From contig NZ_SDWS01000001.1 of the NCBI RefSeq assembly GCF_004137245.1, positions 744,001 through 808,000 of the forward strand: a stretch of DNA of 64,000 nt, read 5' to 3'. A program made the position numbers and the translations under genes. How positions within the stretch are numbered: position 1 is the first letter of the stretch; the number at the start of each line of letters is the position of its first letter. Under the pieces are notes generated by a model, which ran no database searches, was not told where the DNA came from, and worked only from the letters and a program-made list of their open reading frames with translations. Shown here piece after piece: positions 39,621 through 55,496 of this stretch. Source of the stretch: Nocardioides glacieisoli. GTDB lineage: Bacteria; Actinomycetota; Actinomycetes; Propionibacteriales; Nocardioidaceae.

Positions 39621-40312
39621 ACGACCTGCTCGAATGGCTCGTCCACGGCACCATCCCTGTGCCCGGCGGCGAGCTCGGCGCCCGCGAGGTGATCGGCAAC
39701 CTCTTCGGCCTCGCCAGCGCGATCCTCGGCATGAAGCGCTTCGTCTGGGCGTGGCCCGTCGGCCTCGTCGGCAACGTGCTCCTCTTCACCGTTTTCGCGA
39801 CCGGTGAGCTCTCCGGCCAGATCGACGACCCGCTGTGGGGCCAGGCCGGTCGCCAGGTCTTCTTCATCGTGGTCTCGATCTACGGCTGGTGGCGCTGGTC
39901 CCAGATCCGCAAGGCCGGGGGAGCTTCGGACGGCGGCGCCCTCGCTCCCCGCTGGGCCACCACCGCCGAGCGGCTGCAGCTGGTCGCGCTCGGCGGCGTC
40001 GGATACGGGGCGGCGTACGTGCTGCTCCTGCAGATCGGCTCCTACGGTCCCACCACCGAGGCGTGGATCCTGGCCGGCTCGATGCTGGCGACCTACGGGA
40101 TGGCGCGCGGCTGGGTGGAGTTCTGGCTGGTCTGGATCCTCGTCGACGTCGTCGGCGTGACCACGCTGGTGCAGGCGGGCTACTACCCCACGGCCGGGAT
40201 GTACCTCTTCTACGCCGTGTTCGTCGTCATCGGCTTCGTGGTGTGGCTGCGTGACGCACGCACCGTGACCGACACGAGCACCGTCGACGAGAAGGAGTCG
40301 ATCCCGGCATGA
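39617..40312 (+). CDS. ribM: PnuC-family transporter, probable riboflavin importer RibM (PnuX)
   Basis: A 231-aa membrane protein with about seven helices in the PnuC fold. [24 protein letters not shown] and [15 protein letters not shown] are typical. PnuC proteins normally move nicotinamide riboside, but the branch found in FMN-riboswitch operons of Corynebacterium and Streptomyces (RibM/PnuX) takes up riboflavin. Here it is embedded between ribE and ribBA with 4-nt ATGA overlaps on both sides, so riboflavin is by far the best guess. This allows salvage and synthesis to be shut off together by FMN. Confidence 0.9.
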
Positions 40313-41541
40313 GCGGGACAGTGCGACTGGACTCCGTCGAGCGGGCCATCGAGGACATCGCCGCCGGCAAGGCCGTCGTGGTCGTCGACGACGAGGACCG
40401 CGAGAACGAGGGCGACATCATCTTCGCCGCCGCCAGGGCGACGCCGGAGCTGATGGCCTTCACGATCCGCCACTCCAGCGGCGTGATCTGCGTGCCGATG
40501 CCGGGCGACATGCTCGAGCGCCTCGAGATCCCGCTGATGACCCCGCACAACAAGGACAAGCTGCGCACGGCGTACACGATCTCGGTGGACGCCCGCGACG
40601 GCGTGAGCACCGGCATCAGCGCGGCCGACCGCGCCCACACCGCGCGCACGCTGGCCGACTCGGCGACCGAGCCGTGGGACCTGACCCGTCCCGGCCACGT
40701 GTTCCCGCTGCGCTACCGCGAGGGCGGCGTGCTGGTGCGTCGCGGCCACACCGAGGCAGCAGTCGACCTCGCCCGCCTGGCCGGGCTGACCCCCGCAGGC
40801 GTGCTCGTCGAGGTCGTCAACGACGACGGCACGATGAAGCGCGGTCCGGAGCTGCGCGAGTTCGCCGACGAGCACGGCCTGGCGATGATCTCGATCGAGG
40901 ACCTCGTCCGCTACCGCCGCCGGCACGGACGCCACGTCGTGCGGGTCGCCGAGACGCGGCTGCCCACCAGGCACGGCGAGTTCACGGCCTTCGGCTACCG
41001 CATCACCATCGACGGCAGCGAGCACATCGCCCTGGTGCACGGCGACATCTCCGGCGACGAGCCGGTGCTGACCCGGGTGCACAGCGAGTGCCTCACCGGC
41101 GACGTCTTCGGCAGCGAGCGCTGCGACTGCGGCCCACAGCTCGACGAGGCCCTGGCCCGCATCGTGGCCGAGGGCAGGGGAGTGGTGGTCTACCTCCGCG
41201 GCCACGAGGGTCGCGGCATCGGCCTGCTCGCCAAGCTCCAGGCCTACGAGCTGCAGGACGGCGGCCGCGACACGGTCGACGCCAACCTCGACCTCGGCCT
41301 GCCGGCCGACGCGCGCCACTACGGCACGGCGACGCAGGTGTTGCGCGACCTCGGGGTCTCCTCGGTGCGCCTGATGACCAACAACCCCGACAAGTCCACG
41401 AGCCTGGCCGACTTCGGGATCCACGTGGCCGAGCGGGTGCCGCTGACACCGCACCCCAACGACCACAACCTCACCTACCTGCTGACCAAGCGCGACCGGA
41501 TGGGCCACGACCTGCCCGACCTGACAGGAGAGTCCTCATGA
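40309..41541 (+). CDS. ribBA: Bifunctional 3,4-dihydroxy-2-butanone 4-phosphate synthase/GTP cyclohydrolase II
   Basis: Supplies both early precursors of riboflavin (410 aa). The N-terminal DHBP synthase (1-~205) has [33 protein letters not shown] and [11 protein letters not shown]. The C-terminal GTP cyclohydrolase II (~210-405) has the zinc cysteines in [17 protein letters not shown], plus [10 protein letters not shown] and [11 protein letters not shown]. Both halves look catalytically complete. ATG overlaps the ribM stop (ATGA) and its own stop overlaps the ribH start in the same way. Confidence 0.96.
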
Positions 41542-42020
41542 GCGGTGCTGGTGCACCTACGTCCCAGCCCTTCGACGCCAGCGGCCTGAGGGTCGCCGTC
41601 GTCGCCGCGAGCTGGCACACCCAGGTGATGGACGGCCTCGTCGACGGCGCGACCCGCGCCCTGACGGCGTACGGCATCAGCGAGCCGGAGGTGATCCGCG
41701 TCCCCGGCACCTTCGAGCTGCCGGTGGTCGCCTCCGCCCTGGCCAAGGCCGGGTACGACGCCGTGGTGGCGCTCGGCGTCGTCATCCGGGGAGGTACGCC
41801 GCACTTCGACTACGTCTGCTCGGCCGCGACGGACGGTCTGACCCAGGTCAGCGTCGCCCACGCGATGCCGGTCGGCTTCGGCGTGCTGACGTGCGACACC
41901 GAGGAGCAGGCCCTCGACCGTGCGGGGCTCGAGGGCTCCGCGGAGGACAAGGGCTGGGAGGCGACGGCAGCAGCGCTGGACACGGCCCGCGTCGTCGCTC
42001 CTCTGCGCCAGCCGCGCTAG
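41538..42020 (+). CDS. ribH: 6,7-dimethyl-8-ribityllumazine synthase
   Basis: A 160-aa lumazine synthase catalysing the penultimate step. [49 protein letters not shown] and [20 protein letters not shown] are the family motifs, and the catalytic His lies in [14 protein letters not shown] precedes the ATG, which overlaps the ribBA stop. The stop TAG overlaps that of the convergent acetyltransferase gene in a shared CTAG. Last gene of the riboflavin operon. Confidence 0.95.
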
Positions 42021-42598
42021 CGGGCCCGCCACTCCTCGGCGAGGAGCGCGTAGGTGAAGCCGTCGTACCACCCGCCGTCGCGGTGGAGGTTGTCCCGCAC
42101 GTGGTGTGCCTCGCGTCGCATCCCGACCCGCTCCATCAGTCGCCACGAGGCTTCGTTGTCCGCGAAGCAGATGGCGGTGACGCGACGCAGGCCGAGTCCG
42201 TCGAAGGCGATGGCAAGGAGCTCGCGGACGGCTTCGGTGGCGTAGCCCCGCCCCTCGTGGGCGGGAGCCAGGCACCACCCGATCTCGGCGTGCACACCCG
42301 CGCCCCGGTCGCGGACCTCGGCCTGCGCCCACGCGTCCTCGACCTTGAGGAACAGGTCGCCGACCGGGGCGCCGTCGAGATGGATCATCAGGGTGTACGG
42401 GTTGCGCGTGGCGGAGTCGGTGCGCCACTGCTCAGGGTCGGTCGGCTGCCGGGTCATCCACCGGGCCACCGGATCCAGCGAGCGGTAGGCGTACATCGCG
42501 TCGGCGTCCTCCGACGTGGCAGGCCGCACCGTGAGTCGTTCGGTGGCCCGCGGCCAGTCGAGTCGCGCCCAGTCGGGCGCTCCCGTGATCTCGTCCAT
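42017..42598 (-). CDS. GNAT family N-acetyltransferase (RimJ/RimL-like)
   Basis: A 193-aa acetyltransferase with the acetyl-CoA loop [15 protein letters not shown] and the downstream [24 protein letters not shown] typical of the ribosomal-protein/antibiotic acetyltransferase branch. N-terminal [17 protein letters not shown] is also standard. The acceptor is unknown. ATG 42598 (MDEITGAPD) follows CAGACT by 6 nt, a leaderless start; the ATG 15 codons upstream would override that box. Convergent with ribH. Confidence 0.87.
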
Positions 42599-42647
42599 GC
42601 CGCCAGTCTGACCGACGCCGGCCGTCGGCGACGGGTAGGTCATCGGG

Positions 42648-42908
42648 TCACGACGTGCGGTCGTTGCCTGCCCTGAGCCGCTCGATGTGCTCGGACGCCT
42701 CCGCCTTGGTGAGGTCGGCCGAGATCTCCTCGCCGGCCTCGCGGGCGAGGGTGTCGAGGTAGCTGCGCTGCGCGCCGGTCATGGGCTCGTCGCCGGTGAC
42801 CCACTCCTCGGGGTCCTTGCGGGTGGTGTCACCCTGGGGACCGCCGAGGGTCTCGCCGGTGGCGTCGGTGGTGGTCGCGTTGTCCGAATGCATGTTCGAA
42901 TCAGTCAT
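42648..42908 (-). CDS. DUF3072 domain small protein
   Basis: An 86-aa acidic protein. The first ~30 residues look disordered (Asp, Thr and Ser rich), then comes the DUF3072 core DPEEWVTGDEPMTGAQRSYLDTL and TKAEASEHIERLR, a short helical domain common in actinobacteria and of unknown function. The ATG follows TACTGT by 6 nt. Monocistronic and divergent from hisE. Confidence 0.85.
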   Translation of the reverse strand: MTDSNMHSDNATTTDATGETLGGPQGDTTRKDPEEWVTGDEPMTGAQRSYLDTLAREAGEEISADLTKAEASEHIERLRAGNDRTS

Positions 42909-43014
42909 GGCTCGACAGTAGCCCGGCCCGCCGACACCACAACCGCCCATCCGGGTGGTCCGCGCGTGGGACCGACGACCGGTGCCCGCACGCAGCGCCG
43001 TAGGCTTGACCCTC

Positions 43015-43278
43015 GTGAAGACGTTCGAGGACCTGTGGGCAGAGCTGTCCACCAAGGCCGCGGAGCGCCCCGAGGGGTCCGGCACCGTGCAGCAGCTCGA
43101 TGCCGGCGTCCATGCCATCGGCAAGAAGCTCCTGGAGGAGGCCGCCGAGTCGTGGATGGCCGCCGAGCACGAGGGCAAGGACGCAACGGCGCTGGAGATC
43201 AGCCAGCTGCTCTACCACGCGCAGGTGCTCATGCTCGCCTCCGGCCTGACCCTCGACGACGTCTACGCACACCTGTGA
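43015..43278 (+). CDS. hisE: Phosphoribosyl-ATP diphosphatase
   Basis: It hydrolyses phosphoribosyl-ATP to phosphoribosyl-AMP, step two of histidine synthesis. The 87-aa protein is a MazG-like all-alpha fold with [18 protein letters not shown] supplying the metal-binding acidic residues and [15 protein letters not shown]. The GTG at 43015 lies 8 nt after TAGGCT. A longer in-frame GTG start upstream would cross this promoter. hisG follows 24 nt later, so the two are co-transcribed. Confidence 0.94.
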
Positions 43279-43302
43279 GAGTGAACGCGAAGTGAGTTCA
43301 GA

Positions 43303-44148
43303 ATGACCCTCCGCATCGCCGTCCCCAACAAGGGGTCGCTGTCCCTCGCCGCCACCGAGATCCTGCGCGAGTCGGGCTACCGCCAGCGCAGCGACTCCAA
43401 GGAGCTCGCGCTCGTCGACCACGAGAACGACGTCGAGTTCTTCTACCTCCGCCCGCGCGACATCGCGCTCTATGTCGGCGAGGGCACGCTCGACGCCGGG
43501 ATCACCGGTCGCGACCTGCTCCTCGACTCCGGCGCCAAGGCGCAGGAGGTGATGAACCTCGGCTTCGGCCGCTCGCGCTTTCACTTCGCCGGCCCCGTCG
43601 GACGCTACTCGTCGCTGGACGACATCAAGGGTCTGCGGATCGCGACGTCGTACGTCGGCGTGGTCGAGGACCACCTCTTCCGCAACGGGATCGACGCGAC
43701 CGTCACCCGCCTCGACGGCGCGGTCGAGACCAGCATCCAGCTCGGGGTGGCCGACGTCATCGCCGACGTCGTCGAGACCGGGTCGACCCTGCGCGCGGCC
43801 GGCCTCGAGACCTTCGGCGAGGTCATCCTCGACTCACAGGCGGTGCTCATCACCCGCGGCGGCGAGGTGCCGGAGGACTTCGAGATCTTCCGGCGCCGCG
43901 TCGAGGGCGTCCTGGTCGCGCGCAGCTTCGTGATGATGGACTACGACATCGAGCAGGCGAACCTCCCCGCCGCGACCGAGCTCGCGCCGGGCCGCGAGGG
44001 TCCGACCATCTCGCCGCTGGGCACCGAGGGCTGGGTGGCGGTCCGCGTGATGGTGCCGCGCGCCGGGTCGCAGCGGCTGATGGACGACCTCTGGTCCGTC
44101 GGCGCCCGCGCCATCCTGCTCACGGACATCCATGCCTGCCGGCTCTGA
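43303..44148 (+). CDS. hisG: ATP phosphoribosyltransferase, long form
   Basis: First enzyme of histidine synthesis (281 aa). RIAVPNKGSLS at the N-terminus, DAGITGRDLLLDSG, and the PRPP-binding segment in ADVIADVVETGSTLRAAGL are present. The C-terminal ~75 residues form the histidine-binding regulatory domain of long-form enzymes, so no HisZ partner is needed and feedback inhibition is expected. The last 17 nt overlap the PH-domain gene. Adjacent to hisE and the rib operon, as is usual in actinobacteria. Confidence 0.95.
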   Translation: MTLRIAVPNKGSLSLAATEILRESGYRQRSDSKELALVDHENDVEFFYLRPRDIALYVGEGTLDAGITGRDLLLDSGAKAQEVMNLGFGRSRFHFAGPVGRYSSLDDIKGLRIATSYVGVVEDHLFRNGIDATVTRLDGAVETSIQLGVADVIADVVETGSTLRAAGLETFGEVILDSQAVLITRGGEVPEDFEIFRRRVEGVLVARSFVMMDYDIEQANLPAATELAPGREGPTISPLGTEGWVAVRVMVPRAGSQRLMDDLWSVGARAILLTDIHACRL

Positions 44149-44602
44149 GCCCCGGGCGCTGCCGTCGCCCCCACGCACCTGGCGCCCGTTCGGTGTGCGC
44201 ATCGCGGTGATCGGGTTCGGCCTGATGCTCTTCGCCGTCTGCGCCGCCGCGTGGTTCGGCTTCGACGACTCGGTGCGTGACCGGTTCAACGTCCTCCAGC
44301 GGATCACCCTCCTGGTGATGGGTGCCGGGTTCGTGGCCGTCGGCTGGGCGCTCGGTCGCGCCCGGGTGACCGCCGAGATCGAGGCGCTCGTCGTCGTCAA
44401 CGGCTTCCGCACGCGCCAGCTCGACTGGAAGGAGGTCGTCGCGATCCACCTGCCCGACGGCGCGCCGTGGGCGACCCTCGACCTCGCCGACGGCACGACG
44501 ATCTCCGCGATGGCGTTCCAGGGCTCCGACGGCAGGCGCGCCCGCGACGGTGTCCGTCAGGTGCGGGCGCTCATCGACCGCGAGGGCTCACCCGACAGCT
44601 AG
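44132..44602 (+). CDS. Two-helix membrane protein with bacterial PH domain
   Basis: A 156-aa protein with helices FGVRIAVIGFGLMLFAVCAAAW and RITLLVMGAGFVAVGWAL, then a bacterial pleckstrin-like domain (ALVVVNGFRTRQLDWKEVVAI, ATLDLADGTTISAMAF). Family members are widespread next to hisG in actinobacteria, and the role is unknown. The start overlaps hisG by 17 nt. The end overlaps the convergent aldose-epimerase gene by 15 nt. Confidence 0.83.
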   Translation: MPAGSEPRALPSPPRTWRPFGVRIAVIGFGLMLFAVCAAAWFGFDDSVRDRFNVLQRITLLVMGAGFVAVGWALGRARVTAEIEALVVVNGFRTRQLDWKEVVAIHLPDGAPWATLDLADGTTISAMAFQGSDGRRARDGVRQVRALIDREGSPDS

Positions 44603-45511
44603 GGCCAGGTCGTGGATGCCCCACGACACCGACAGCTCGTCACCCGGGCTGCCCGCGGCCGCGAGGGTGACCAGGTCGGTGCCGGAGTTGAACGCGTCGG
44701 CGGGCGCCGTCATCGGCTCGACCGCCAGCCCGGGACGTACGCCGTCCACCGCAGGTGGTGTGAACAGCTGGAGCCACCTGTGGTGCTCGTCGACCCAGAG
44801 CGCGACGCCGCGTCCGGAGGCCGGGTCGGTCAGGGTCACGGTGCAGCGGCCGTCGTCGTGCACGAGGTCGCCGTACGCGTCGTCGAGCACGGCGTCCCCG
44901 AGGCGGCGTGCCGAGGTGTAGTCGTGCGCACCCGACGCCGGTTCGGTGCCGACCGGGAGCTGGCGGTCGTCGACCAGCAGCCGGGTACGTGCGGGCACCT
45001 GCAGCTCGAGGTCCTCGATGCCCGAGCCGACCGAGAGGTAGGGGTGCGCGCCGCTGGCGCAGGGCGCGGGTTCGGGGGAGAGGTTGGTGGCGGTCTGGGT
45101 GACGACGAGCCCGTCGGCCGAGAGGTCGTAGAGCACGTGCAGGTCGAGGGTCCACGGGTAGCCGGTCTGCGCCATCACGCGGTAGACGAGCGAGACCGAC
45201 GTGTCGGTGTGCTCCTCGAGCGTCCACGCCGCCCACCGCGCGAGCCCGTGCGAGGCGTTGCCCTTCGAGGGATCGGTGAGCCCGAGCTGGAGGTCGCGGC
45301 CCCCGAAGGAGTAGCGACCGTCGCGGATCCGGTTCGGCCACGGCATCAGCAGCTGGCCGCGACCGCCGCTCGACATCTCGGCCTCCGCGAACCCGTGCAC
45401 CAGGTGACGTCCGTGGTGCTGCAGCACGCGCAGCGCGGCACCGCTCTCGGTGACCACGGCGGCGTAGCCCGCCGCCGAGATCTCGAACTGGTCGCCGCTG
45501 GGAAACACCAT
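44588..45511 (-). CDS. Aldose 1-epimerase family protein
   Basis: A 307-aa beta-sandwich protein of the galactose mutarotase family. LLMPWPNRIRDGRYSFGG is the sugar-binding start, HGLARWAAWTLEE carries a catalytic-type His, and SGAHPYLSVG the second; the acidic residue lies in LAVEPMTAPADAFNSG. It should interconvert alpha and beta anomers or handle hexose-6-phosphates. ATG 45511 follows TAGGGT by 7 nt. A tandem hairpin repeat lies upstream, between this gene and the kinase gene. Confidence 0.88.
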   Translation of the reverse strand: MVFPSGDQFEISAAGYAAVVTESGAALRVLQHHGRHLVHGFAEAEMSSGGRGQLLMPWPNRIRDGRYSFGGRDLQLGLTDPSKGNASHGLARWAAWTLEEHTDTSVSLVYRVMAQTGYPWTLDLHVLYDLSADGLVVTQTATNLSPEPAPCASGAHPYLSVGSGIEDLELQVPARTRLLVDDRQLPVGTEPASGAHDYTSARRLGDAVLDDAYGDLVHDDGRCTVTLTDPASGRGVALWVDEHHRWLQLFTPPAVDGVRPGLAVEPMTAPADAFNSGTDLVTLAAAGSPGDELSVSWGIHDLALAVG

Positions 45512-45540
45512 GCCGGCCACCCTAGACAGCGCTGGCGTCG

Positions 45541-45672
45541 GGGGTGGCGGCACATCGCAGGTCCGCGGCCGGCTCTCGTGCAACCTGCCGCCACCCCAAC
45601 AGGGTCGGGGCTGGGGGGTGGCGGCACATCGCAGGTTCGCGGCCCGTTCTCGTACGACCTGCCGCCACCCCC
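45541..45672. repeat. Two tandem copies of a 57-bp hairpin repeat
   Basis: Copy 1 spans 45541-45597 and copy 2 about 45615-45671, at a 74-bp period and with only about five differences. Each has perfect 12-13-bp outer arms (GGGGTGGCGGCA / TGCCGCCACCCC) and an alternative inner pairing GCAGGT/ACCTGC. Both lie between the uridine-kinase-like gene's stop and the epimerase promoter. It could be a REP-like element or a strong terminator for the kinase operon. There is no coding in the 45512-45693 gap. Confidence 0.8.
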
Positions 45673-45693
45673 ACCGGGGGCAGGGTGGGGTGG

Positions 45694-46251
45694 TCAGCCG
45701 TCCGTCGACACCACGAGGTCGGCGTGCTCGCGGGTGCGGAAGGTGGCGTGGAGCTCCTGCTCGTCGACCTGCCAGCGCAACCAGTGCTCGCGCATCGCCT
45801 CGCCGTCACGGGCGATGCCACGGTCGAGCCGCAGGTCGGGGCCGGCCTCGACCCACACGAGCATCCCGACCAGGTCGGCGATCGCCGGCGACCACGAGCC
45901 GACGCCCTCGAGCACGAGCAGGCCGCCCGGCTCGACGGGGTGGTCCTCGGCCCAGCCGTCCGCCAGCCAGTCCCACCGCGTCCAGTGGCTGGTGCGACCG
46001 GCCGCCAGCGGGGCCAGGAGGGCCTCCACGGTCGCCGCCAGGCCGGGCAGTCCGGCCCAGCCCTGCAGCAGCTCGTCGCAGTGGATGACGACCACGTCGT
46101 CGGCGGCCGCCTCCAGCGCGTCCGCGAGGGTCGTCTTGCCCGACCCGGCCGGGCCGTCGATGCAGACGAGTCGCCCCGGACCCAGCGTCGGCGGCTCCGT
46201 CAGGACCTGCCGGGCAACGCTCGCGGCGACCTGCGACGGGTCAGAAGGCAA
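45694..46251 (-). CDS. Uridine kinase-like P-loop NTPase
   Basis: A 185-aa nucleoside/nucleotide-kinase fold protein: Walker A IDGPAGSGKTTLADAL, an acidic VVVIHCDELLQGW after strand 2, and RTSHWTRWDW with lid-like arginines later. VLVLEGVGSW is written as LLVLEGVGSWS in the sequence and provides the Walker B-like Glu. The only start before the P-loop appears to be TTG 46251, which overlaps the upstream gene by 11 nt. The substrate is unknown. It is the terminal gene of the three-gene leftward operon. Confidence 0.78.
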   Translation of the reverse strand: MPSDPSQVAASVARQVLTEPPTLGPGRLVCIDGPAGSGKTTLADALEAAADDVVVIHCDELLQGWAGLPGLAATVEALLAPLAAGRTSHWTRWDWLADGWAEDHPVEPGGLLVLEGVGSWSPAIADLVGMLVWVEAGPDLRLDRGIARDGEAMREHWLRWQVDEQELHATFRTREHADLVVSTDG

Positions 46252-47470
46252 GGTCGCAGCCGCGGTAGGACGGGACCACCTCGGTGACCGCCTCGCCGGT
46301 GACGAGGTGGACGTCGCGGACGTGCTCGAACAGCTCGCCCGACTTGGCGTGCCGGAACCACACGAGGTCGCCGATCCTCAGCAGCGCTGCGGGGTGGCCG
46401 GTCAGCGGGGTCTGCACCTCACCGGCGCCCTCGAGCCCCGTGAGGTGCAGTCCGGGCGGCGCCCACGGGACGGGGGAGCGGTCCTCACCGGTCGCGCCGC
46501 TGGCGATGAGGCCACCGCCGTGGACGGTCGCCATCGCCGGCGTGGGCTTGCGGGTCACCCGGAGCCCGAAGTACGCCGCCGGGCGCGGCTCGAAGGACGC
46601 GTAGTGGTCGAAGATCCCGGGCACCAGCAACCCCGACCCGGCGGCGATCTCGGTGACGGCCGGGTCGGCGGCGGTCACCTCGACGGAACCCGAGCCGCCG
46701 CCGTTCCAGAACTCGAGCCCGGTGACCTGCGAGAGGGCCTCGGAGATCTCGCGGCGACGCACCTCGAGCTGTGCCATCGACGCCTGCTTGAGGCGTCGTA
46801 CGAGCAACGACCTGGTCCGCTGGTCCGGCACGTCGTCCTGGACGCCGGCCACCTGGCCCTCGTAGGTCATCACGCCGACCAGCCGCACACCATCGCGCTC
46901 GTGGACCAGGCGTGCGAGGGCGACCACGTCGGCGGTGTCGAAGAGGGGGGAGCGCTTGGGGCCGATGTGCTGGCCGCCGAGGCGCAGCCCGGCATCGAGG
47001 TCGAGTGCGACCCTGATCTCGGCCCCGCCCGCGACGGCGCCGCCCGGGCGCGCGTCGTCGATCACTGCGAGGTGCGCGGGGTCGTCGACCATCACCGTGA
47101 TCGCGGCCGCCGCCTCGGGGGAGGCCGTCAGCCGACGCAGCGCGCTCACGTCGACCGTCGGGTAGGCGACGACGATGTCGTTGCTCACGCCGGTCTCGTG
47201 GAGCCAGAGCGCCTCAGCGAGCGCGTACGCCAGGACACCCTCGAAGCCGTCGTGCGCCAGTGCGCGGGCGATCAGCGCCGGCACGCGGATCGACTTCGAC
47301 GCGACCCGCACGGGTTTGCCGCCGGCCCGGCGCACCAGGTCGGCGGCGTTGGCGTCGAAGGCGTCGAGGTCGACGACGGCGATCGGCGTGGCGGGTGGAT
47401 CGGGGAGCGCGGCGACCGCAGCGTCGAGCCGCGACCACAGGCGGTTGCGGGCGACGAAGTCGTGGCTCAC
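46241..47470 (-). CDS. Alanine racemase-fold PLP protein (amino acid deaminase/aldolase family)
   Basis: A 409-aa fold-type III PLP enzyme. The N-terminal TIM barrel binds PLP through the Lys in PVRVASKSIRVPALI. YEGQVAG and WNGGGSGSVEVT follow, and the C-terminal beta domain has VHGGGLIASG and DLVWFRHAKSGELFEH, with likely metal ligands. It resembles D-threonine aldolase and D-serine dehydratase more than alanine racemase. A D-amino acid or beta-hydroxy amino acid substrate is plausible but unproven. The GTG start overlaps the membrane-protein gene stop by 4 nt (GTGA). Confidence 0.85.
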   Translation of the reverse strand: MSHDFVARNRLWSRLDAAVAALPDPPATPIAVVDLDAFDANAADLVRRAGGKPVRVASKSIRVPALIARALAHDGFEGVLAYALAEALWLHETGVSNDIVVAYPTVDVSALRRLTASPEAAAAITVMVDDPAHLAVIDDARPGGAVAGGAEIRVALDLDAGLRLGGQHIGPKRSPLFDTADVVALARLVHERDGVRLVGVMTYEGQVAGVQDDVPDQRTRSLLVRRLKQASMAQLEVRRREISEALSQVTGLEFWNGGGSGSVEVTAADPAVTEIAAGSGLLVPGIFDHYASFEPRPAAYFGLRVTRKPTPAMATVHGGGLIASGATGEDRSPVPWAPPGLHLTGLEGAGEVQTPLTGHPAALLRIGDLVWFRHAKSGELFEHVRDVHLVTGEAVTEVVPSYRGCDLAF

Positions 47471-47931
47471 TCGATGCCGCGCTTCTTCAGCAGCGCCTCG
47501 ATGTCGGCCATCTCGTCGTCGACGGGCGATCCCCCCTTCGAGCGCGCGGAGGCCGACGGCAGCTCGCGGCGTGCCGACGGGGCCGCATCGGCGGGAGCCT
47601 TGCCGCTTCCGCCGGCGGCCTGGCCGCGGGCGAGCTGGCGGTCCCGGATGAAGCCGCTGACCACGAAGAGCAGCAGGGCGAGCCCGGCGAGGCCGACCCC
47701 GCTCCACGTCAGGACGTTGAAGACCAGGCTCGTCGCCCAGTCGGTGATCGAGCCCGCGATCTCGACGACCACCTCGAGGGTCCCGGTGAGCCAGGCAGCT
47801 GCCGGGAGCAGCGTGAAGCCCAGGGCGCGCAGCCCGTTGGCCGCTCCCCGGCGGCGGAACGCGATCCATGTCCAGATCGCCCCCGCGACGGTCAGTGCGG
47901 CGGTCAGTGCAGCCCAGGTAGTCCCTTCCAC
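47467..47931 (-). CDS. Hypothetical membrane protein with C-terminal coiled tail
   Basis: A 154-aa protein: three hydrophobic segments (LTAALTVAGAIWTWIAF, LGFTLLPAAAWLTG, GVGLAGLALLLFVVSGFI) then a soluble tail rich in Ala, Arg and Ser ending DDEMADIEALLKKRGIE, a pattern found at the end of many actinobacterial proteins. I do not recognise a family. GTG 47931 lies 6 nt after GACTCT. It leads the operon with the PLP protein and the kinase, and is divergent from SseB. Confidence 0.72.
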   Translation of the reverse strand: MEGTTWAALTAALTVAGAIWTWIAFRRRGAANGLRALGFTLLPAAAWLTGTLEVVVEIAGSITDWATSLVFNVLTWSGVGLAGLALLLFVVSGFIRDRQLARGQAAGGSGKAPADAAPSARRELPSASARSKGGSPVDDEMADIEALLKKRGIE

Positions 47932-47977
47932 AGGGCCAGAGTCCCACAACGGTCCACGTCTCCGGGACAATGGCGCG

Positions 47978-48544
47978 GTGGACCCCTTCACTCCAGAGGC
48001 CGATGCCCGGCCCGACAGCGAGCACCTGGTGAGGACCATCCCCGACCCCGGCTTCGCCGACGACGCCGGTGCCGGCGATCCCGTCCTCGGCGGGTTGCTG
48101 GCCGCGCACCGCGACGGTGAGGCGTCGTCCGGCGCGGTGCTGGCGGTCTTGCAGGACGCGCGCCTCCTGGTCCCGGTCGTCGCGGTCCTCGGGGAGGTCG
48201 AGCTCGACGCGCAGGGGCTGGCCCACGACAAGTCGTCCGACATGGCGGCGGTGCTCGTCCGGGCGGCCGACGGGGGCACCGGCCTGCTGGCCTTCACCTC
48301 CCTCGAGACGATGGCGCGCTGGGACCCGCAGGCCCGCCCTGTCCCGGTGACCGCGGCCACCGCGGCCACGGCTGCCGTCCAGGATGGTGCCGAGGCGCTG
48401 CTGGTCGACCTCGCCGGCCCCACGTCGTACGTCGTCGACGGCGACGACCTCACCCGGCTGGCCTCCGGGTGGCGGCTGGTGGCACTGGGCGAGGGGCAGG
48501 GACACGGCTGGGTCGGCCCCCAGATTGGCTCCGGACCGGAATGA
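47978..48544 (+). CDS. SseB-family protein
   Basis: A 188-aa protein with the SseB N-terminal domain fold: LVPVVAVLGEVELDAQG, VLVRAADGGTGLLAFTSLETMARWDP and AEALLVDLAGPTSYVV. SseB proteins have a loosely described role linked to serine sensitivity, and actinobacterial ones are typically found upstream of infC, as here. GTG 47978 follows GACAAT by 6 nt. The infC promoter begins inside its 3' end. Confidence 0.86.
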   Translation: MDPFTPEADARPDSEHLVRTIPDPGFADDAGAGDPVLGGLLAAHRDGEASSGAVLAVLQDARLLVPVVAVLGEVELDAQGLAHDKSSDMAAVLVRAADGGTGLLAFTSLETMARWDPQARPVPVTAATAATAAVQDGAEALLVDLAGPTSYVVDGDDLTRLASGWRLVALGEGQGHGWVGPQIGSGPE

Positions 48545-48555
48545 TCCGCTAACCT
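48525..48555 (+). promoter_or_regulatory. Candidate promoter of the infC-rpmI-rplT operon
   Basis: TTGGCT (48525-48530) and TAACCT (48550-48555) are 19 nt apart, overlapping the end of SseB, and would start RNA near 48562. A second TTGACC at 48562 has no convincing -10 partner. Confidence 0.35.
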
Positions 48556-48850
48556 TCCGTGTTGACCGATCAGTGCCGTAGAACCCTTTGCGACACCGAT
48601 CCCGCCAAGCGGAGGCAGCACCACCCGTCTCCCACCCGCACCGATCGTCCTGCACCACAGATCGTCGGGTCCCGGTCCAGTGCCACAGCTGCGTACGTCG
48701 CAGGTGTGGGACAGCAGTTTCCCCGAGAGGGGAGACGTGTGACGACTGGCTCCCGCTTGGCACACAGCGGGAGCCTTCTGCATTTCCCCACCGGTTCGTC
48801 AGGTGAGGAGCCAGGAGCGGCTCCCACCCACCCGAACCACTGGAGGAAGT
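48556..48850 (+). promoter_or_regulatory. Long infC leader with attenuator-like hairpins
   Basis: About 290 nt separate the putative transcription start from infC. It holds TCCCC-GAGA-GGGGA (48719-48733 region) and a strong hairpin, GGCTCCCGCT/AGCGGGAGCC (48748-48775), followed by TTCTGCATTT, which looks like a terminator placed 75 nt before the start codon. Autoregulation of infC-rpmI-rplT by leader attenuation is known in other bacteria; the same logic may apply. No convincing structural gene lies in this stretch. Confidence 0.55.
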
Positions 48851-49534
48851 ATCAGCACCGAGCTGCGCATCAACGAGCGGATCCGCGTACCCGAGGTCCG
48901 GCTCGTCGGACCCAACGGTGAGACCGTTGGGATCGTGCCGACCGATCAGGCACTCAAGCTGGCCCAGGAGGCCGACCTCGACCTCGTCGAGATCGCCCCG
49001 CAGGGACGCCCCCCGGTCTGCAAGCTCATGGACTACGGCAAGTTCAAGTACGAGAACGCCCAGAAGGCGCGCGAGGCCCGTCGCAACCAGACGAACGTGA
49101 TCATCAAGGAGATGAAGCTTCGTCCCAAGATCGACTCGCACGACTACGAGACCAAGAAGGGTCACGTCGTGCGGTTCCTCGGCGCGGGCGACAAGGTCAA
49201 GATCACGATCATGTTCCGCGGCCGTGAGCAGCACCGTCCCGAGCTGGGCTTCCGCCTGCTGCAGAAGCTCGCCGAGGACGTGCAGGAGCTCGGCTTCGTC
49301 GAGTCCTCGCCCAAGCAGGACGGGCGCAACATGACCATGGTCATCGGCCCGCACAAGAAGAAGGCCGACGCCAAGATCGACGCCGACGCAGCCCGCGCCA
49401 CGAGGGCCCAGGCCCGCGCCGACGCGAAGGCGGAGGAGGACGCGGAGCGCGAGGCAGCACACCTCGCCGGCCCCGTGGCCCAGAAGAAGGAGCGCGGTCG
49501 CTCCGAGAACCTCGATCCCGAGATCGAGGCCTGA
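48851..49534 (+). CDS. infC: Translation initiation factor IF-3, AUC start
   Basis: IF-3 binds the 30S subunit and enforces start-codon fidelity. The protein (227 aa) has the N-domain [19 protein letters not shown] and [26 protein letters not shown], linker and C-domain [23 protein letters not shown] and [17 protein letters not shown]. About 45 extra Ala/Glu/Arg-rich residues extend the C-terminus. I place the start at ATC 48851 because GGAGG lies 4 nt upstream and the sequence ISTELRIN matches the usual N-terminus; ATG 48803 would add 16 unrelated residues and cover the ribosome-binding site. A rare AUU/AUC start lets IF-3 repress its own synthesis. Confidence 0.9.
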
Positions 49535-49643
49535 GCGAAGCGAAGGGCTCGATCGAAGCGGGTGGCGACGAAGTCGTCACATCACGCACCTCGATCGGCG
49601 CCACCACCCAGAACCCAGTACGCAGAAGGAAGTTGAGGCAGAC

Positions 49644-49856
49644 ATGCCGAAGAACAAGACCCACTCGGGCGCGAAGAAGCGCTTCAAGGTGACCGGCTCG
49701 GGCAAGATCATGCGTCTGCAGGCCGGCCGCAAGTCCGGTGCTGCGTTCGCGTCCGCGCCGACCACGGGCAGCCGCAAGAAGCACCGTCGCAACGCCGGCA
49801 TGGTCGAGCTCGAGAAGAGCGACGTCGCCCGCGCCAAGAAGATGCTCGGCATCTGA
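49644..49856 (+). CDS. rpmI: 50S ribosomal protein L35
   Basis: A 70-aa, very basic ribosomal protein; [21 protein letters not shown] and [18 protein letters not shown] are diagnostic. It sits 109 nt after infC and 65 nt before rplT in the standard order. The infC-rpmI gap carries only a short GAAGCGAAGG stretch and no clear promoter, so the three are probably co-transcribed. Confidence 0.97.
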
Positions 49857-49921
49857 GCCTCATCACCTGGTGGCCCGGCCGCCGTCCCCGTCTTCAACCC
49901 CATTGCATCAAGGAGTAACCC

Positions 49922-50308
49922 ATGGCACGCGTGAAGCGCGCAGTGAACGCCCAGAAGAAGCGTCGTACCACCCTCGAGCGGGCCAGCGGCTACCGCGGCC
50001 AGCGCTCGCGCCTGTACCGCAAGGCCAAGGAGCAGGTCACCCACTCCCTCGTCTACAGCTACAACGACCGGCGCAAGAACAAGGGCAACTTCCGCAAGCT
50101 CTGGATCCAGCGCATCAACGCCGCGGCCCGCGCCAACGGCATGACCTACAACCGGTTCATCCAGGGCCTCGGCCTCGCCGGTATCGAGGTCGACCGCAAG
50201 ATCCTCGCCGAGCTCGCCGTCAACGACGCCCCGGCCTTCGCCACGCTGGTCGAGGCTGCCAAGGCCGCGCTGCCCGAGGACGTCAACGCGCCCAAGGTCA
50301 GTGCCTGA
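49922..50308 (+). CDS. rplT: 50S ribosomal protein L20
   Basis: A 128-aa L20. [38 protein letters not shown] and [19 protein letters not shown] are diagnostic, and AAGGAG lies 7 nt before ATG. L20 is an early assembly protein of the large subunit and, in several bacteria, the repressor of its own operon through the leader mRNA. Its stop overlaps or abuts the possible early start of the following methyltransferase. Confidence 0.97.
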
Positions 50309-50327
50309 TCAAGCGGGCCTGATCCAC

Positions 50328-51107
50328 ATGAGCACTCCTCTCGTCGCGACGAACAGCCGCGTCAAGGAGGCTCGCAAGCTGAGCCGCCGTTCGGTACGCA
50401 CCGAGCGGCGGCTCTTCCTTGCCGACGGCCCGAAGGCCGTCGAGGGCGCACTGTCGATCGAGGGTTGCGTGGTCGAGGTCTTCGCCACGCCCGCGGCGCT
50501 CGAGCACCACGCCGACCTGCTGGCCGGCGCCACCGTCACGCTCGTCGACGAGCGTGCCCTCGCCTCGCTCTCCGACTCGGTCTCCCCGGCGGGGGTGGTG
50601 GCACTGTGCCACCACATCGACGCGCCGCTCGCGGACGTCGTCACCGCCTCGACTCGCCTGCTGGCGATCTGCGCCGACGTGCGCGACCCGGGCAACGCAG
50701 GCAACGTGATCCGTACGGCGGATGCCGCCGGCGCCGACGCCGTGGTGCTCGCCGGCCAGTCCGTGGACGCCTACAACCCCAAGACGGTGCGCAGCACCGT
50801 CGGCAGCCTGTTCCACCTGCCCTTCGCAGTCGAGGCCGACCCGGCCACCGCGGTCCGGGCCGCCCAGGCGCGTGGCCTGACCGTGCTCGCCGCCGACGGC
50901 TCGGGCGAGGTCGACCTGTTCGGGGCCGACCTGGCGGGCCCGACGGCGTGGCTCTTCGGCAACGAGGCGTGGGGCCTGCCGGCGGAGCTCGCGGCACTGG
51001 CCGACCACCGCGTCGCCATCCCGATCCACGGTCGCGCCGAGAGCCTCAACCTCTCCACCGCCGCGGCCGTGTGCCTCTACGCCAGCGCCCGGGCGCAGCG
51101 CACCTGA
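50328..51107 (+). CDS. SpoU/TrmH-family rRNA 2'-O-methyltransferase (third)
   Basis: A 259-aa methyltransferase following rplT, as is conserved in actinobacteria. SpoU motifs: RDPGNAGNVIRTADAAGAD, WLFGNEAWGLPAEL and ESLNLSTAAAVCLYASA. The N-terminal domain (RRLFLADGPKAVEGAL) matches TsnR/RlmB relatives. ATG 50328 gives the usual N-terminus MSTPLVATNSRVKEARKLS; a GTG at 50301, inside rplT, is a possible alternative. Target position unknown. Converges with the WYL gene, 4 nt between stops. Confidence 0.88.
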   Translation: MSTPLVATNSRVKEARKLSRRSVRTERRLFLADGPKAVEGALSIEGCVVEVFATPAALEHHADLLAGATVTLVDERALASLSDSVSPAGVVALCHHIDAPLADVVTASTRLLAICADVRDPGNAGNVIRTADAAGADAVVLAGQSVDAYNPKTVRSTVGSLFHLPFAVEADPATAVRAAQARGLTVLAADGSGEVDLFGADLAGPTAWLFGNEAWGLPAELAALADHRVAIPIHGRAESLNLSTAAAVCLYASARAQRT

Positions 51108-51111
51108 CGCC

Positions 51112-52092
51112 TCACGCGGAGGGCACGGCCCCGGCGTACCTCCGGGCAAGGGCAGCCACGTGCGCGACGAGCTCCGGCGGCTCGTCGACGTGGAAGTCGA
51201 GGCCGAGCATGCCGATCCACACGGCGACCATCTCGACGCTGTCGGCCCCGGTGACCAGGACGCTGTGCGCCTCGTCGACCGTCTCCACCACGCCGACGGT
51301 GGGGTTGATCCGGCGCAGCACCTCCTCGGCGGGGGCGTCGACGGCGATGCGGCAGTGCACCGACCAGCCAGAGAACGCCACCTGCCGCAGCACGAAAGCC
51401 GAGTAGTCCCCGCCCTCCATCGGGTCGGGCACGAAACGTCCGGCACCGGGTGTCCGGAGCTCGATCCAGTCCGCGCGGTAGGCCTGCCAGCTGCGGTCGT
51501 CGCGGCGGCGGGCGACGACGTACCACCGCTCCTGCCAGCTCACGAGGCGGTAGGGGTCGGCCTCGACGCGCTCCTCGGCGTCGGCCGCTCCAGGGTGGTG
51601 GTGCCGCATCCGCAGGCCCTCGTGGTCGCGGATCGCCGCGGCCAGGTCGGCGAGCAGGCCCACATCGACCACCGGCGCCGGCACGTTGGTGGCGGTGTTC
51701 GTCGGACCGATGTCGGTGCTCTCGTGGAGCGCCCGCACCCGGCGCCGCAGGCGGTCGGGCAGCACCTGCTCGAGCTTGGCCACGGCGAGGGCGCTGGGCT
51801 CCTCGAGCCCGCGGACCGTGGCTGCCGAGCCCAGCCCGACGGCGACCGCCACCGCCTCGTCGGGCTCGAGCAGCAGGGGAGGCAGCCGACCGTGGTCGCC
51901 GAAGCGGTAGCCGCCGGACGGTCCGCGCACCGAGTCGATCGGGTAGCCGAGCTCGCGGAGCCGCTCGACGTCCTTGCGGACCGTCCGCTCGCCGACGCCG
52001 AGCCGGGCCGACAGGTCGGACGCTGCGACCACCTCCCGCGCCTGCAGCAGGCTGAGCAGCGCGAGGAGCCTGGACGACGTCTGGAGCGGCAT
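51112..52092 (-). CDS. WYL-domain transcriptional regulator (HTH_11 type)
   Basis: A 326-aa regulator. An N-terminal DeoR-like winged helix (LSARLGVGERTVRKDVERLRELG) is followed by a WYL domain (about 140-320), with DPYRLVSWQERWYVVARR and the ligand-type arginines in WQAYRADWIELRT. WYL domains bind small ligands or nucleic acid and control nearby genes. GAGAGGGTG precedes the ATG. The divergent neighbour is an epoxide hydrolase, a likely target; CTCC-caaaatagc-GGAG at about 52132-52148 lies between them. Confidence 0.87.
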   Translation of the reverse strand: MPLQTSSRLLALLSLLQAREVVAASDLSARLGVGERTVRKDVERLRELGYPIDSVRGPSGGYRFGDHGRLPPLLLEPDEAVAVAVGLGSAATVRGLEEPSALAVAKLEQVLPDRLRRRVRALHESTDIGPTNTATNVPAPVVDVGLLADLAAAIRDHEGLRMRHHHPGAADAEERVEADPYRLVSWQERWYVVARRRDDRSWQAYRADWIELRTPGAGRFVPDPMEGGDYSAFVLRQVAFSGWSVHCRIAVDAPAEEVLRRINPTVGVVETVDEAHSVLVTGADSVEMVAVWIGMLGLDFHVDEPPELVAHVAALARRYAGAVPSA

Positions 52093-52183
52093 CGAGCACC
52101 CTCTCGGGAGCAGCGCGAGGAAGTGGATGGAGCTCCCAAAATAGCGGAGTGATCCGTGCCGGAACCCTTCCTACCGTACCTCC

Positions 52184-53302
52184 ATGACCACTCACCAGAG
52201 CCAGACCCAGCCCCTCGACCTCCGCCCCTTCACGGTCGCCGTCCCGCAGGACGCCATCGACGACCTCCACGCCCGCCTCGCCCGCACCCGCTACGCCGCC
52301 GAGCCGGTCGACACCGCCGGCACCGACGACTGGTCGGCCGGAGCCCCCGTCGCCTACCTCCGCGAGATGGTGGAGCACTGGAGCACCGGTTTCGACTGGC
52401 GCGCCCAGGAGGAGCGGATGAACGCGTACCCGCAGTTCCTCACCGAGATCGACGGCCAGACCATCCACTTCGTGCACGTCCGGTCGGCCAACGAGGACGC
52501 CACGCCGCTCCTGCTCCTGCACACCTACCCGGGCTCGTTCGTGGACTTCCTCGACCTGGTGCCGCACCTGAGCGACGACTTCCACCTCGTGATCCCGTCG
52601 ATCCCGGGCGTCGGCCACAGCCAGCCGCTCACCGACGGCGCGTGGGACTCCACCCGCACCGCCCGCACCTGGGACGCGCTGATGCGCGGCCTCGGCTACG
52701 AGTCCTACGGCGCGCACGGCTCCGACAACGGCGCGATCGTCTCGCGTGAGCTCGCGATGCTGGCCCCCGAGGGCTTCCTCGGCGCGCACGTGCTCCAGCT
52801 GTTCTCGTTCCCGTCGGGCGACCCCGCCGAGTTCGAGAAGATGACGCCGTCCGACTACGCCGCGCTGGAGTTCGCCGGGTGGTTCCAGACCGTCAACGGG
52901 TACGCCGCGATGAACGCGTCGCGGCCGCGCACCATCGCCGCCGCCCTCAGCGACTCCCCGGTGGGCCAGCTCGCCTACAACGAGCTCTTCGAGAGCTTCG
53001 GCAACGGCACCTCGCGCCTCACGCGGGACCAGGTGCTGACCCAGGTCAGCCTGTACTGGTTCACCAACAGCAGCGGCGGTGCGGTGCAGACCTACCGCGC
53101 GGAGCAGGCGGTCGAGGCGCGGGTCAACGAGGGCCGGATCGGTGTCGCGGTCTTCGCCGACGACTTCCAGACGTTGCGCCCCTTCGCCGAGCGCGACAAC
53201 ACCGACATCGTGTCCTGGACCGAGCACCCGGAGGGCGGTCACTTCGCCTCGATGGAGGTCCCCGAGGAGCTCGCGTCCGCGATCCGCGCCTTCTATCGGT
53301 GA
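52184..53302 (+). CDS. Epoxide hydrolase (EHN-type alpha/beta hydrolase)
   Basis: A 372-aa enzyme of the microsomal-like epoxide hydrolase group. The N-terminal EHN domain (PFTVAVPQDAIDDLHARLARTRY) is followed by the alpha/beta hydrolase core: oxyanion motif HTYPGSFVDF, nucleophile Asp in GAHGSDNGAIVSREL, and C-terminal catalytic His in EHPEGGHFASMEVPEELA. ATG 52184 follows TACCGT by 6 nt. It is divergent from the WYL regulator, and the pair looks like a small detoxification module inserted between conserved translation genes. Confidence 0.9.
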   Translation: MTTHQSQTQPLDLRPFTVAVPQDAIDDLHARLARTRYAAEPVDTAGTDDWSAGAPVAYLREMVEHWSTGFDWRAQEERMNAYPQFLTEIDGQTIHFVHVRSANEDATPLLLLHTYPGSFVDFLDLVPHLSDDFHLVIPSIPGVGHSQPLTDGAWDSTRTARTWDALMRGLGYESYGAHGSDNGAIVSRELAMLAPEGFLGAHVLQLFSFPSGDPAEFEKMTPSDYAALEFAGWFQTVNGYAAMNASRPRTIAAALSDSPVGQLAYNELFESFGNGTSRLTRDQVLTQVSLYWFTNSSGGAVQTYRAEQAVEARVNEGRIGVAVFADDFQTLRPFAERDNTDIVSWTEHPEGGHFASMEVPEELASAIRAFYR

Positions 53303-53347
53303 TCGCACGCGTGAGCGGGAGCCGGGCGACCGGCTAGCCTCGCGGCG

Positions 53348-53614
53348 ATGATCCTCATCGATCCACCTGCCGTGGCCAGGTGGGACCGGCTCTGGTCCCA
53401 CCTGGCCAGCGACACGTCGTACGACGAGGCGCACGAGTTCGCGGCCGCCCACGGCATCCCGGCCCGGGGCTGGGACCGCGACCACTACGACGTGCCCGAC
53501 GACTACTACGACGCGATGGTCGCCGCCGGCGCCGTGCCGGTCTCCTCGCGCGAGCTGGTGTCGGCCCTGCGCGCCGCGGGCCTGCGACGGCCGAAGCCGC
53601 AGTCCCGGCCCTGA
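53348..53614 (+). CDS. DUF4031 protein
   Basis: An 88-aa protein with the DUF4031 pattern: WSHLASDTSYDEAHEFAAAHGIPARGW and DHYDVPDDYYDAMVAAGAVPVSSRELV (shown as DHYDVPDDYYDAMVA). Family function is unknown. The ATG follows TAGCCT by 7 nt, and the sensor kinase follows 21 nt after its stop but has its own -10 box. Confidence 0.85.
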   Translation: MILIDPPAVARWDRLWSHLASDTSYDEAHEFAAAHGIPARGWDRDHYDVPDDYYDAMVAAGAVPVSSRELVSALRAAGLRRPKPQSRP

Positions 53615-53635
53615 ATCTGCCCTAGGGTGACCGAC

Positions 53636-54706
53636 GTGTCCGGGGAGAGGAAGGTCGAGAGCACGCCCACCCGGCTGCGTTCGCTTGCCGACTACTACCC
53701 CGACGGCGTCCTCGGCGCCACCCGCGACGGTGTCGTCACGATCATCAACTCCCAGGCTGCCGCGCTGCTCGGCATCGACGCGCAGGAGGCCGCGACCCTG
53801 CCGCTGTCCGAGCTGTTGCGGCTCCTCGACCAGGACGGGCGCACCTGGCTCGACGTCAACCGGCCCTTCGACAGCATCTCGATCGTCCGTGCCGTCCCCG
53901 AGCAGTCGTGGCTCAACGCCTCCGGCGAGGAGGTGCTCACCACTGCCAGGCTCGTCCGCGACGAGCCACTCGGTCCCGTCGTCGGCATCGCTGTCGGGCT
54001 CCGCAGCGGACGGGGCCGTGCCCGGCTCGACCGCGAGCGCTCCGACCTCGTCGCCACCGTCGCCCACGAGCTCCGGTCCCCGTTGACCGGTGTGAAGGGC
54101 TTCGTGCAGGCCCTGCTCAACCGATGGGACAAGCTGACCGACGACCAGCGCAAGCTGATGCTCAACACCGTCAACGCCGACGCCGACCGCTTGGCCCGGC
54201 TGATCGCCGAGCTCCTCGACGTCGCCCGCATCGACACCGGCCGGCTCCAGCTCTACCCGCGCGAGTCGTCGGCCGAGGTCCTGGTGCGCCGGGTCGTCGA
54301 GTCGATCGAGGCCGGCACGTCGCGCGAGATCCTCCTCGAGGTCGAGGACGACCTTCCGGAGGTCTTCGCCGACCCCGACAAGTTCACCCAGGTCGTGACG
54401 AACCTGGTCGAGAACGCCATCCGCCACGGGCAGGGCCAGGTGAGCGTCCGGCTGGCCCGCACCCCCGACCGCACCGGTGTGCGCACCACGGTCGACGACG
54501 AGGGCGACGGCATCCCCGTCGAGCTGCGCCGGCGGGTCTTCACCAAGTTCTGGACCACCGGTGACTCCGGCGGCAGCGGGCTCGGGATGTACATCGTCGG
54601 CGGCCTGGCCCGTGCGCACGGCGGCTGGGTCACCATCGACGACGCCCCGGGCGGCGGAGCGCGCGTGATGGTCGACTGGCCGAGCGACGACCAGCGCCCG
54701 GAGTGA
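53636..54706 (+). CDS. Soluble PAS-domain sensor histidine kinase
   Basis: A 356-aa cytoplasmic kinase without transmembrane segments: PAS domain about 20-115 (YYPDGVLGATRDGVVTIINSQ), HisKA with the phospho-His in VATVAHELRSPLTGVKGF, and HATPase with VVTNLVENAIRHG (N box) and GSGLGMYIVGGLARAHGG. A kinase at this place, just before pheS, is conserved in Streptomyces and relatives, and its partner is not established. GTG 53636 lies 7 nt after TAGGGT. The OmpR-type regulator gene downstream has its own promoter and a cognate kinase, so it is not the obvious partner. Confidence 0.88.
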   Translation: MSGERKVESTPTRLRSLADYYPDGVLGATRDGVVTIINSQAAALLGIDAQEAATLPLSELLRLLDQDGRTWLDVNRPFDSISIVRAVPEQSWLNASGEEVLTTARLVRDEPLGPVVGIAVGLRSGRGRARLDRERSDLVATVAHELRSPLTGVKGFVQALLNRWDKLTDDQRKLMLNTVNADADRLARLIAELLDVARIDTGRLQLYPRESSAEVLVRRVVESIEAGTSREILLEVEDDLPEVFADPDKFTQVVTNLVENAIRHGQGQVSVRLARTPDRTGVRTTVDDEGDGIPVELRRRVFTKFWTTGDSGGSGLGMYIVGGLARAHGGWVTIDDAPGGGARVMVDWPSDDQRPE

Positions 54707-54785
54707 CCCGGCCCGACGACCACCTCCACACAACCTTCACGAGTCGTCCCCGCCTCCCGCGCGCCCGGGCTCCTAGGGTCGGAGC

Positions 54786-55496
54786 ATGACGTCGAGCATG
54801 CCCGTGCGGACCGCCCTGGTGGTCGAGGACGAGCGCACCATCAACGATGCGCTGGCCCAGCGGCTGCGCGCCGAGGGCTACACGGTGGAGCAGGCCTTCG
54901 ACGGTCCGTCCGCGGTCGAGGTCGCGGCAGCCGTGCGACCCGACGTGGTGCTCCTCGACGTGATGCTGCCCGGCTTCGACGGCCTGGAGGTCTGCCGCCG
55001 GATCCAGGCCGAGCGCCCCGTCCCGGTGCTGATGCTGACCGCGCGCGACGACGAGGCCGACGTGCTCGTGGGCCTCGGGGTCGGCGCCGACGACTACCTC
55101 ACCAAGCCGTTCTCGATGCGCGAGGTCGTCGCCCGCGTCGCCGCCCTGCTGCGGCGCGTCGAGCGTGCCGAGGCTCTCGCCGCCGAACGGCCCGCCGCCC
55201 TCGAGGTCGGTGCGATCAGCATCGACCCCGGCACCCGGCGTACGACCGTGGCGGGCGAGCCGGTCCACCTGACGCCGACGGAGTTCGACCTGCTGCTGTG
55301 CCTGGCCCGCGAGGCCGGCCAGGTCCTCGGCCGCGACCGGCTGCTCCGCGAGGTCTGGGACTGGGGCGACGCCTGGGGGAGCCCCGGCGCCGCACGCACC
55401 GTCGACAGCCACGTCAAGGCGCTGCGCGCCAAGGTCGGTGCCGAGCGGATCCGCACGGTCCACGGCGTCGGCTACTCCCTCGAGGACCTGACATGA
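54786..55496 (+). CDS. OmpR/PhoB-family response regulator
   Basis: A 236-aa regulator: receiver domain with acidic VVEDERT, phospho-acceptor Asp in VVLLDVMLPGFDGLEV, and TKPFSMREVVARV with the conserved Lys. The C-terminal winged helix has LTPTEFDLLLCLAREAG and RTVDSHVKALRAKVG. ATG 54786 lies 6 nt after TAGGGT. Its stop overlaps the ATG of the fused kinase by 4 nt, so they are a coupled pair. Confidence 0.92.
   Translation: MTSSMPVRTALVVEDERTINDALAQRLRAEGYTVEQAFDGPSAVEVAAAVRPDVVLLDVMLPGFDGLEVCRRIQAERPVPVLMLTARDDEADVLVGLGVGADDYLTKPFSMREVVARVAALLRRVERAEALAAERPAALEVGAISIDPGTRRTTVAGEPVHLTPTEFDLLLCLAREAGQVLGRDRLLREVWDWGDAWGSPGAARTVDSHVKALRAKVGAERIRTVHGVGYSLEDLT

Follow-up and report, generated by a model that had tools for sequence, protein, structure and literature searches.

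A probable L20-type transcription attenuator of new architecture, and an AUC start codon, ahead of infC-rpmI-rplT in the class Actinomycetes

In the window, a stretch of 64,000 nucleotides from Nocardioides glacieisoli (contig NZ_SDWS01000001.1, positions 744,001 to 808,000), the genes infC, rpmI and rplT follow one another in that order behind a leader of roughly 290 nt. We consider it likely that this leader attenuates transcription autogenously in the manner of an L20 leader, accompanied by a probable autocontrol of IF3 via an AUC start codon. The computed support consists of the structure, its covariation, the mutual exclusion of terminator and antiterminator, the position, the class-wide conservation and the non-canonical start; the transcription start, L20 as the ligand, the direction of control and the IF3 autocontrol are what we infer. 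A first-pass annotation of the same DNA had placed the control in 48719-48853. The terminator-like hairpin is indeed there, but the probable site of the regulator lies further upstream, at 48564-48677. Judging by the sequence, the elements of the switch reach beyond the interval described earlier, and the terminator-like hairpin closes a conserved attenuator whose start lies upstream. The features are as follows.

48550..48555, + strand: -10 box TAACCT of the presumed infC promoter, from the enrichment of TAnnnT upstream of the element
48564..48568, + strand: P0 5' strand GACCG, presumed to be at or near the mRNA 5' end; it pairs with 48673-48677, with two-sided changes at all 5 P0 pairs
48568..48601, + strand: P1 hairpin, of variable sequence; 8/8 modelled pairs have two-sided changes, and it appears when the element is folded alone
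48605..48612, + strand: antiterminator 5' strand CCAAGCGG, complementary to 48753-48760; the mean complementarity profile peaks on this strand
48606..48611, + strand: junction CAAGCG containing AAG, which is present in 75/75 rows of alignment A3; part of the antiterminator
48611..48632, + strand: P2 hairpin GGAG ... CUCC, with two-sided changes in 4/5 pairs
48634..48670, + strand: P3, made of ACCCG 48634-48638 with CGGGT 48666-48670 and, inside, CGATC 48642-48646 with GATCG 48660-48664; two C-G pairs in 75/75 rows, two-sided changes in 6/10 pairs
48673..48677, + strand: P0 3' strand CGGTC, covarying with the P0 5' strand
48720..48733, + strand: UCCCC-GAGA-GGGGA hairpin, present in the sequence, no role detected
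48748..48785, + strand: intrinsic-terminator-like hairpin, GGCTCCCGCT 48748-48757 with AGCGGGAGCC 48766-48775 and tail TTCTGCATTT 48776-48785, from sequence, leader comparison and folding
48842..48846, + strand: Shine-Dalgarno stretch GGAGG, from the start codon comparison across infC loci
48851..49534, + strand: infC (IF3), with an AUC start from the start codon comparison; Pfam PF05198 and PF00707 (IF3_N, IF3_C)
49644..49856, + strand: rpmI (L35); rpmI match in 139/139 infC loci longer than 2300 bases
49922..50308, + strand: rplT (L20); rplT match in the same 139/139 loci longer than 2300 bases

The junction RNA (48564-48677) is composed of P0, P1, CAAGYG, P2 (GGAG/CUCC) and P3 (ACCYG/CGGGU) and starts 8 nt past the -10 box. 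Comparison of the leaders brought out a series of conserved blocks, i.e. the -10 box, GACCG, CAAGYGGAG, CUCCCACCYG, CGGGUC and GGUC, all of them well upstream of 48719-48853, and the core pattern AAGNGG...CCCAC, used loosely and relaxed where needed, is found in 218/219 leaders. Covariation, which the first-pass annotation had proposed to look for in its two hairpins, was found in this upstream junction RNA, where 23 of the 28 pairs changed on both sides in an alignment of 75 rows. In the same 75 rows, which were selected by the model, the covarying cells numbered 303, where shuffles gave 87 (sd 8) and sliding the strands no more than 62, and paired cells came to 93.8% vs 77.2% in shuffles; neither the shuffles nor the permutations make a correction for relatedness. 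This alignment, A3, holds 68 of the 71 sources at E <= 0.011 (L027, L096 and L097 were omitted) and 7 genus members. Within the range tested upstream of the element, TAnnnT occurs in 69/75 leaders vs 10.8 expected from base shuffles, and in 62 of the 69 leaders having it the motif ends 6-9 positions before the element. From this spacing it is likely that the mRNA begins with the element.

The hairpin seen at first reading about 75 nt before infC is present at 48748-48785, 76 nt ahead of the ATC, and its attenuator-like reading was supported by comparison, both of the terminator itself and of the complementarity of an antiterminator. A hairpin of <= -16 kcal/mol followed by a T-rich tail was found in 162/218 leaders vs 48/218 shuffles (one shuffle per leader), while 56/218 leaders had no strong terminator by the criteria used; the tail in the window, TTCTGCATTT, is T-poor. 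The terminator 5' arm has its complement in the strand CAAGYGGAG and the bases that follow, which makes terminator and antiterminator mutually exclusive, as in the pairing of GGAGGCUCC with GGAGCC in a Streptomyces leader (L158) or of GGAGACCC with GGGUCUUC in a leader from the same order as the window organism (L030). For the tests of this pairing, the 218 core-pattern leaders were narrowed to 170 with a hairpin of <= -14 (150 distinct; 86 distinct extensions), and the hairpin chosen by script is not the evident terminator in some of them, e.g. L039, L053 and L136. The mean duplex energy with the terminator 5' arm peaks at -13.8 at AAGYGG and is about -7 to -10 elsewhere. With permuted arms the value was -13.1, and that of the own arm, -13.8, was reached in 0/2000 permutations; the gain is just 0.65 kcal/mol, since the core hardly varies. 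The variable extension alone gave -3.8 vs -2.7 permuted (0/5000), and the own extension was within the best 10% of swapped arms in only 25/86. Among the 150 distinct leaders, AAGYGG ranked first for pairing in only 46% and among the top 5% of stretches in 59%.

Folding of the window element in isolation gives P0-P3 (-37.8). For the window transcript up to the terminator loop, the antiterminator is favoured (-93.4 vs -79.9 with P0, P2 and P3 forced), and for the full window leader it is the terminator (-106.3 vs -100.4 with the antiterminator forced). In the full-length fold another pairing displaces P0 and P2, and the terminator combined with forced P0, P2 and P3 (-99.7) gains nothing over the antiterminator (-100.4). 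The bare folding energies allow, and do not prove, a switch that would need a ligand to hold the junction. Because the junction and the antiterminator share the same bases, a ligand holding the junction would cause termination. Competition between terminator and antiterminator, as belongs to an L20-type leader, is seen by sequence and folding, and not in every leader. The other hairpin described at first reading, UCCCC-GAGA-GGGGA, is in place at 48720-48733, but one weak test gave it no signal over shuffles as a regulatory site: among the 32 of 40 genus loci carrying the terminator motif, to which the test was restricted, a hairpin just upstream of the terminator was present in 30/30 distinct leaders vs 27.8 expected from base shuffles, with low power in GC-rich DNA.

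The distribution of the element was followed with two covariance models. The first (R1) was trained on the genus, from a seed of 35/40 Nocardioides-type loci that omitted L011 (truncated), L015 (without start motif), L020 (without core pattern) and L140 and L146 (both identical to other loci). When R1 was applied to 100 of the 219 loci, with leader matches on the infC strand counted at E <= 1, it found the element in the leaders of 86/99 others tested, plus the window's own, and 3 more matches lay elsewhere. The class model (R2) gave 97 matches in 96/118 class genomes and no match in 22/118, and 96/97 matches were directly upstream of infC, 95 of them placed within 400 bases upstream by script and one (G135) by eye. 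The training alignment of R2 was A3, to which 53 of the 118 class genomes contribute a row; among the 65 genomes without a row, R2 matched 43. The single match elsewhere, in G107, was taken as spurious, as by eye the region is response-regulator-like and the motif is absent; a Pfam scan of one flank found no family. In a sample of the phylum, R2 with strict filters matched all 17 class members and 0/181 others.

The Rfam model of the L20 leader, RF00558, matches nothing at E <= 1 in the entire genome of the window organism and nothing in 40000-56000 of the window. Its gathering score (58.7 bits) was reached by 0/118 class genomes, so that, strictly, the element is not a member of RF00558; matches in 5/118 class genomes were weak, none of them at infC by coordinates, and were set aside. 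In other classes of the phylum, RF00558 does match infC leaders, once above gathering (65.6 bits, L248). A match adjoins infC in 26 of the 32 out-of-class genomes with a located infC and in 6 it does not; counted by match, 26/51 adjoin infC and 25 do not, and at E <= 0.1 the model also matches below its cut-off in two control genomes. With filters off, R2 matches 16/38 out-of-class leaders (40 were fetched, 38 searched, and a loose pattern finds the core in 28/40), all 16 on the infC strand over the AAG...CACC core, with scores that are individually weak (best E 0.0038). In 30 RF00558 loci, 13 of the 22 R2 matches, with individually weak E-values, fall on the RF00558 element with at least 40 nt of overlap on the same strand, and the displayed alignments set AAG on AAG and CACC on CACC. 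The core common to the class element and the RF00558 leaders is AAG, a hairpin, C and another hairpin, which opens with NCC/GGN. The complementarity of P2 and terminator is found outside the class as well, at -11.3 vs -8.2 permuted (0/5000, 29 distinct pairs, from 30 leaders many of which are close relatives). An AA dimer and two consecutive C-G pairs are each present in 75/75 model-selected class rows, and an AA dimer with two consecutive G-C pairs is among the features listed for L20 sites in the available text of PMC7247131.

The element lies immediately upstream of infC-rpmI-rplT, and in the bridging loci it is in the same register as the RF00558 elements. The link to L20 raised at first reading is supported by this comparison, and by analogy with the relatives we infer that L20 probably binds the element. 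No similarity was found between the whole element and the genome's own 23S rRNA, and mimicry of rRNA by the whole element was rejected, R2 scoring 6.9 bits on the rRNA strand of the 23S locus and 13.2 bits (E 0.13) on the other; stretches containing AAGUGG exist in 23S, and no tie of these to the L20 site was established.

Some observations were made in passing. In the 3' region of a 23S rRNA (L277 4462-4553), AAGCGGGAA...UUUCCCACC resembles the leader core at 6.9 bits, likely by chance. Four infC leaders of an out-of-class family (L237, L238, L242 and L251) have CCAAGAAGGG...CCCCUCACCUCCCGG with a hairpin further on, a further variant of the core to which RF00558 gives no match and R2 a weak one or none. 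In another out-of-class genome, the 3' end of a tmRNA gene lies about 450 bases upstream of infC on the infC strand (L257 552-600, minus strand; a truncated Rfam tmRNA match below gathering). Rfam matches near the window leader (2dG-II, S6-S18-Chlorobi, mir-486) were discarded, being below gathering and outside the leader; the 2dG-II riboswitch match at 44577-44659 on the minus strand has 27.1 bits vs a gathering score of 60 and is probably due to chance.

The window infC starts with ATC 48851-48853 behind GGAGG 48842-48846, as the first-pass annotation had stated; the upstream alternative it named as ATG at 48803 turned out to be GTG. The window infC has a start other than AUG, GUG or UUG, as would be expected for IF3 autorepression. 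Among the 219 infC loci of the class, which include a few duplicate genomes, the aligned start codon is ATC in 210, and when the codon was shifted by script 1-2 places where needed the counts became 216 ATC, 1 ATA, 1 ATT and 1 GTC, i.e. a non-canonical start in 219/219. An SD-like stretch precedes it in 219/219 loci by a loose pattern, and in 75/219 there is no in-frame ATG, GTG or TTG between the upstream stop and the aligned start (in 2/219 the reading frame leaves the locus before an upstream stop). The one GTC, where relatives have ATC, ATA or ATT behind the SD, belongs to L130, from a class genome of 1.4 Mb (G103); GTC is a non-canonical start reported for Streptomyces sigR in PMC5472188. 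The ATC start is the already known part of the finding, the same source stating it of Streptomyces infC. By analogy with relatives, IF3 probably limits its own synthesis via the AUC start.

Taken together, the description that suits the element best is that of an L20-type attenuator of new architecture, to which the AUC start would add a second control of a known kind. Transcription would begin immediately ahead of P0. At low levels of free L20, CAAGYGGAG, i.e. the junction with the 5' strand and loop of P2, would pair with the 5' arm of the terminator as an antiterminator, and the polymerase would read into the operon. L20 present beyond its 23S rRNA sites would bind the AAG/P2/P3 junction and hold CAAGYGGAG inside it, so that the terminator could form about 75 nt ahead of infC. 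The transcripts that read through would be translated from AUC, a codon against which IF3 discriminates, and IF3 would probably limit its own synthesis too.

The same RNA switch could answer to IF3 or L35 instead of L20, given its place before infC and the joint presence of all three genes in 139/139 loci; however, its core is in register with the RF00558 leaders, whose Bacillus subtilis member binds L20 (PMC6097659, from the available text), and we regard another ligand from the operon as unlikely. The invariant core of a junction RNA with an expression platform would also suit a riboswitch that senses a small molecule and controls infC by coincidence, but 96/97 class matches precede infC and the core matches that of L20 leaders, which leaves this reading scarcely credible. 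A ribosome-mediated attenuation via a leader peptide would find open frames in a leader of about 290 nt; yet the covarying RNA begins a few nt past the -10 box, with little room for an upstream ribosome site, and it is the paired bases that are conserved, making such a mechanism very improbable. Hairpins are common in GC-rich DNA (48/218 shuffles pass), and one might suppose that the terminator-like hairpin is constitutive, the start codon misread and regulation absent. The covariation, the antiterminator complementarity, the synteny and the non-canonical start in 219/219 loci all speak against this, and we give it very little weight.

If true, the L20-type attenuator with AUC would mean that in the class, to which Streptomyces belongs, an essential translation operon has a defined regulatory RNA, one that Rfam release 15, as searched, does not detect; no description of an actinobacterial infC or L20 leader was found in the open-licence literature. 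On the origin of the arrangement we are evenly divided: L20 attenuation of infC may be ancestral to Actinomycetota and common with Bacillota rather than peculiar to Firmicutes, the class Actinomycetes having rebuilt the mRNA 5' end as a four-way junction (P0/P1) that would alter when or how L20 is sensed and, with AUC, give two feedback loops on two gene products.

In Mycobacterium tuberculosis, the infC 5' UTR is 326 nt long with a UTR/CDS read ratio of 2.6 in exponential and 4.9 in stationary phase, in a study whose available text cites the Bacillus L20 system, aligns the infA and infC UTRs and names no structure class (PMC3207917). A UTR more abundant than the coding region is as premature termination would give, and the attenuator would explain it if that leader is of the same kind. 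Among the known systems, those with IF3 autorepression via AUU or AUC have the non-canonical infC start in common with the window. The Escherichia coli L20 operator shares L20 autocontrol and the gene cluster but targets translation of the two ribosomal-protein genes, infC not being controlled, according to the text available of PMC10931766. A deltaproteobacterial L20 leader candidate, compared by description only, has the AA dimer and two consecutive G-C pairs in common with the class element and differs in scaffold and lineage (PMC7247131, available text). The closest likeness is to the Bacillus subtilis L20 leader (RF00558), which also stands upstream of infC-rpmI-rplT and has AAG, a hairpin, a single C, a second hairpin with CC/GG pairs and a terminator, and in which L20 binding makes the terminator form (PMC6097659). 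To this layout the class Actinomycetes adds P0 and P1, and the distance from the -10 box to AAG is 32-72 nt (median 41) in 69 class leaders vs a median of 18 (range 9-95) in 27 out-of-class leaders. P2 in the class is GGAG/CUCC whereas the RF00558 consensus, with which the comparison was made, is GAAGC/GCUUC. In the available text of PMC6097659 the Bacillus leader is called narrowly distributed to Firmicutes; the present element would extend the L20 leader past those confines and, by providing a second scaffold, would allow L20 recognition to be tested in both.
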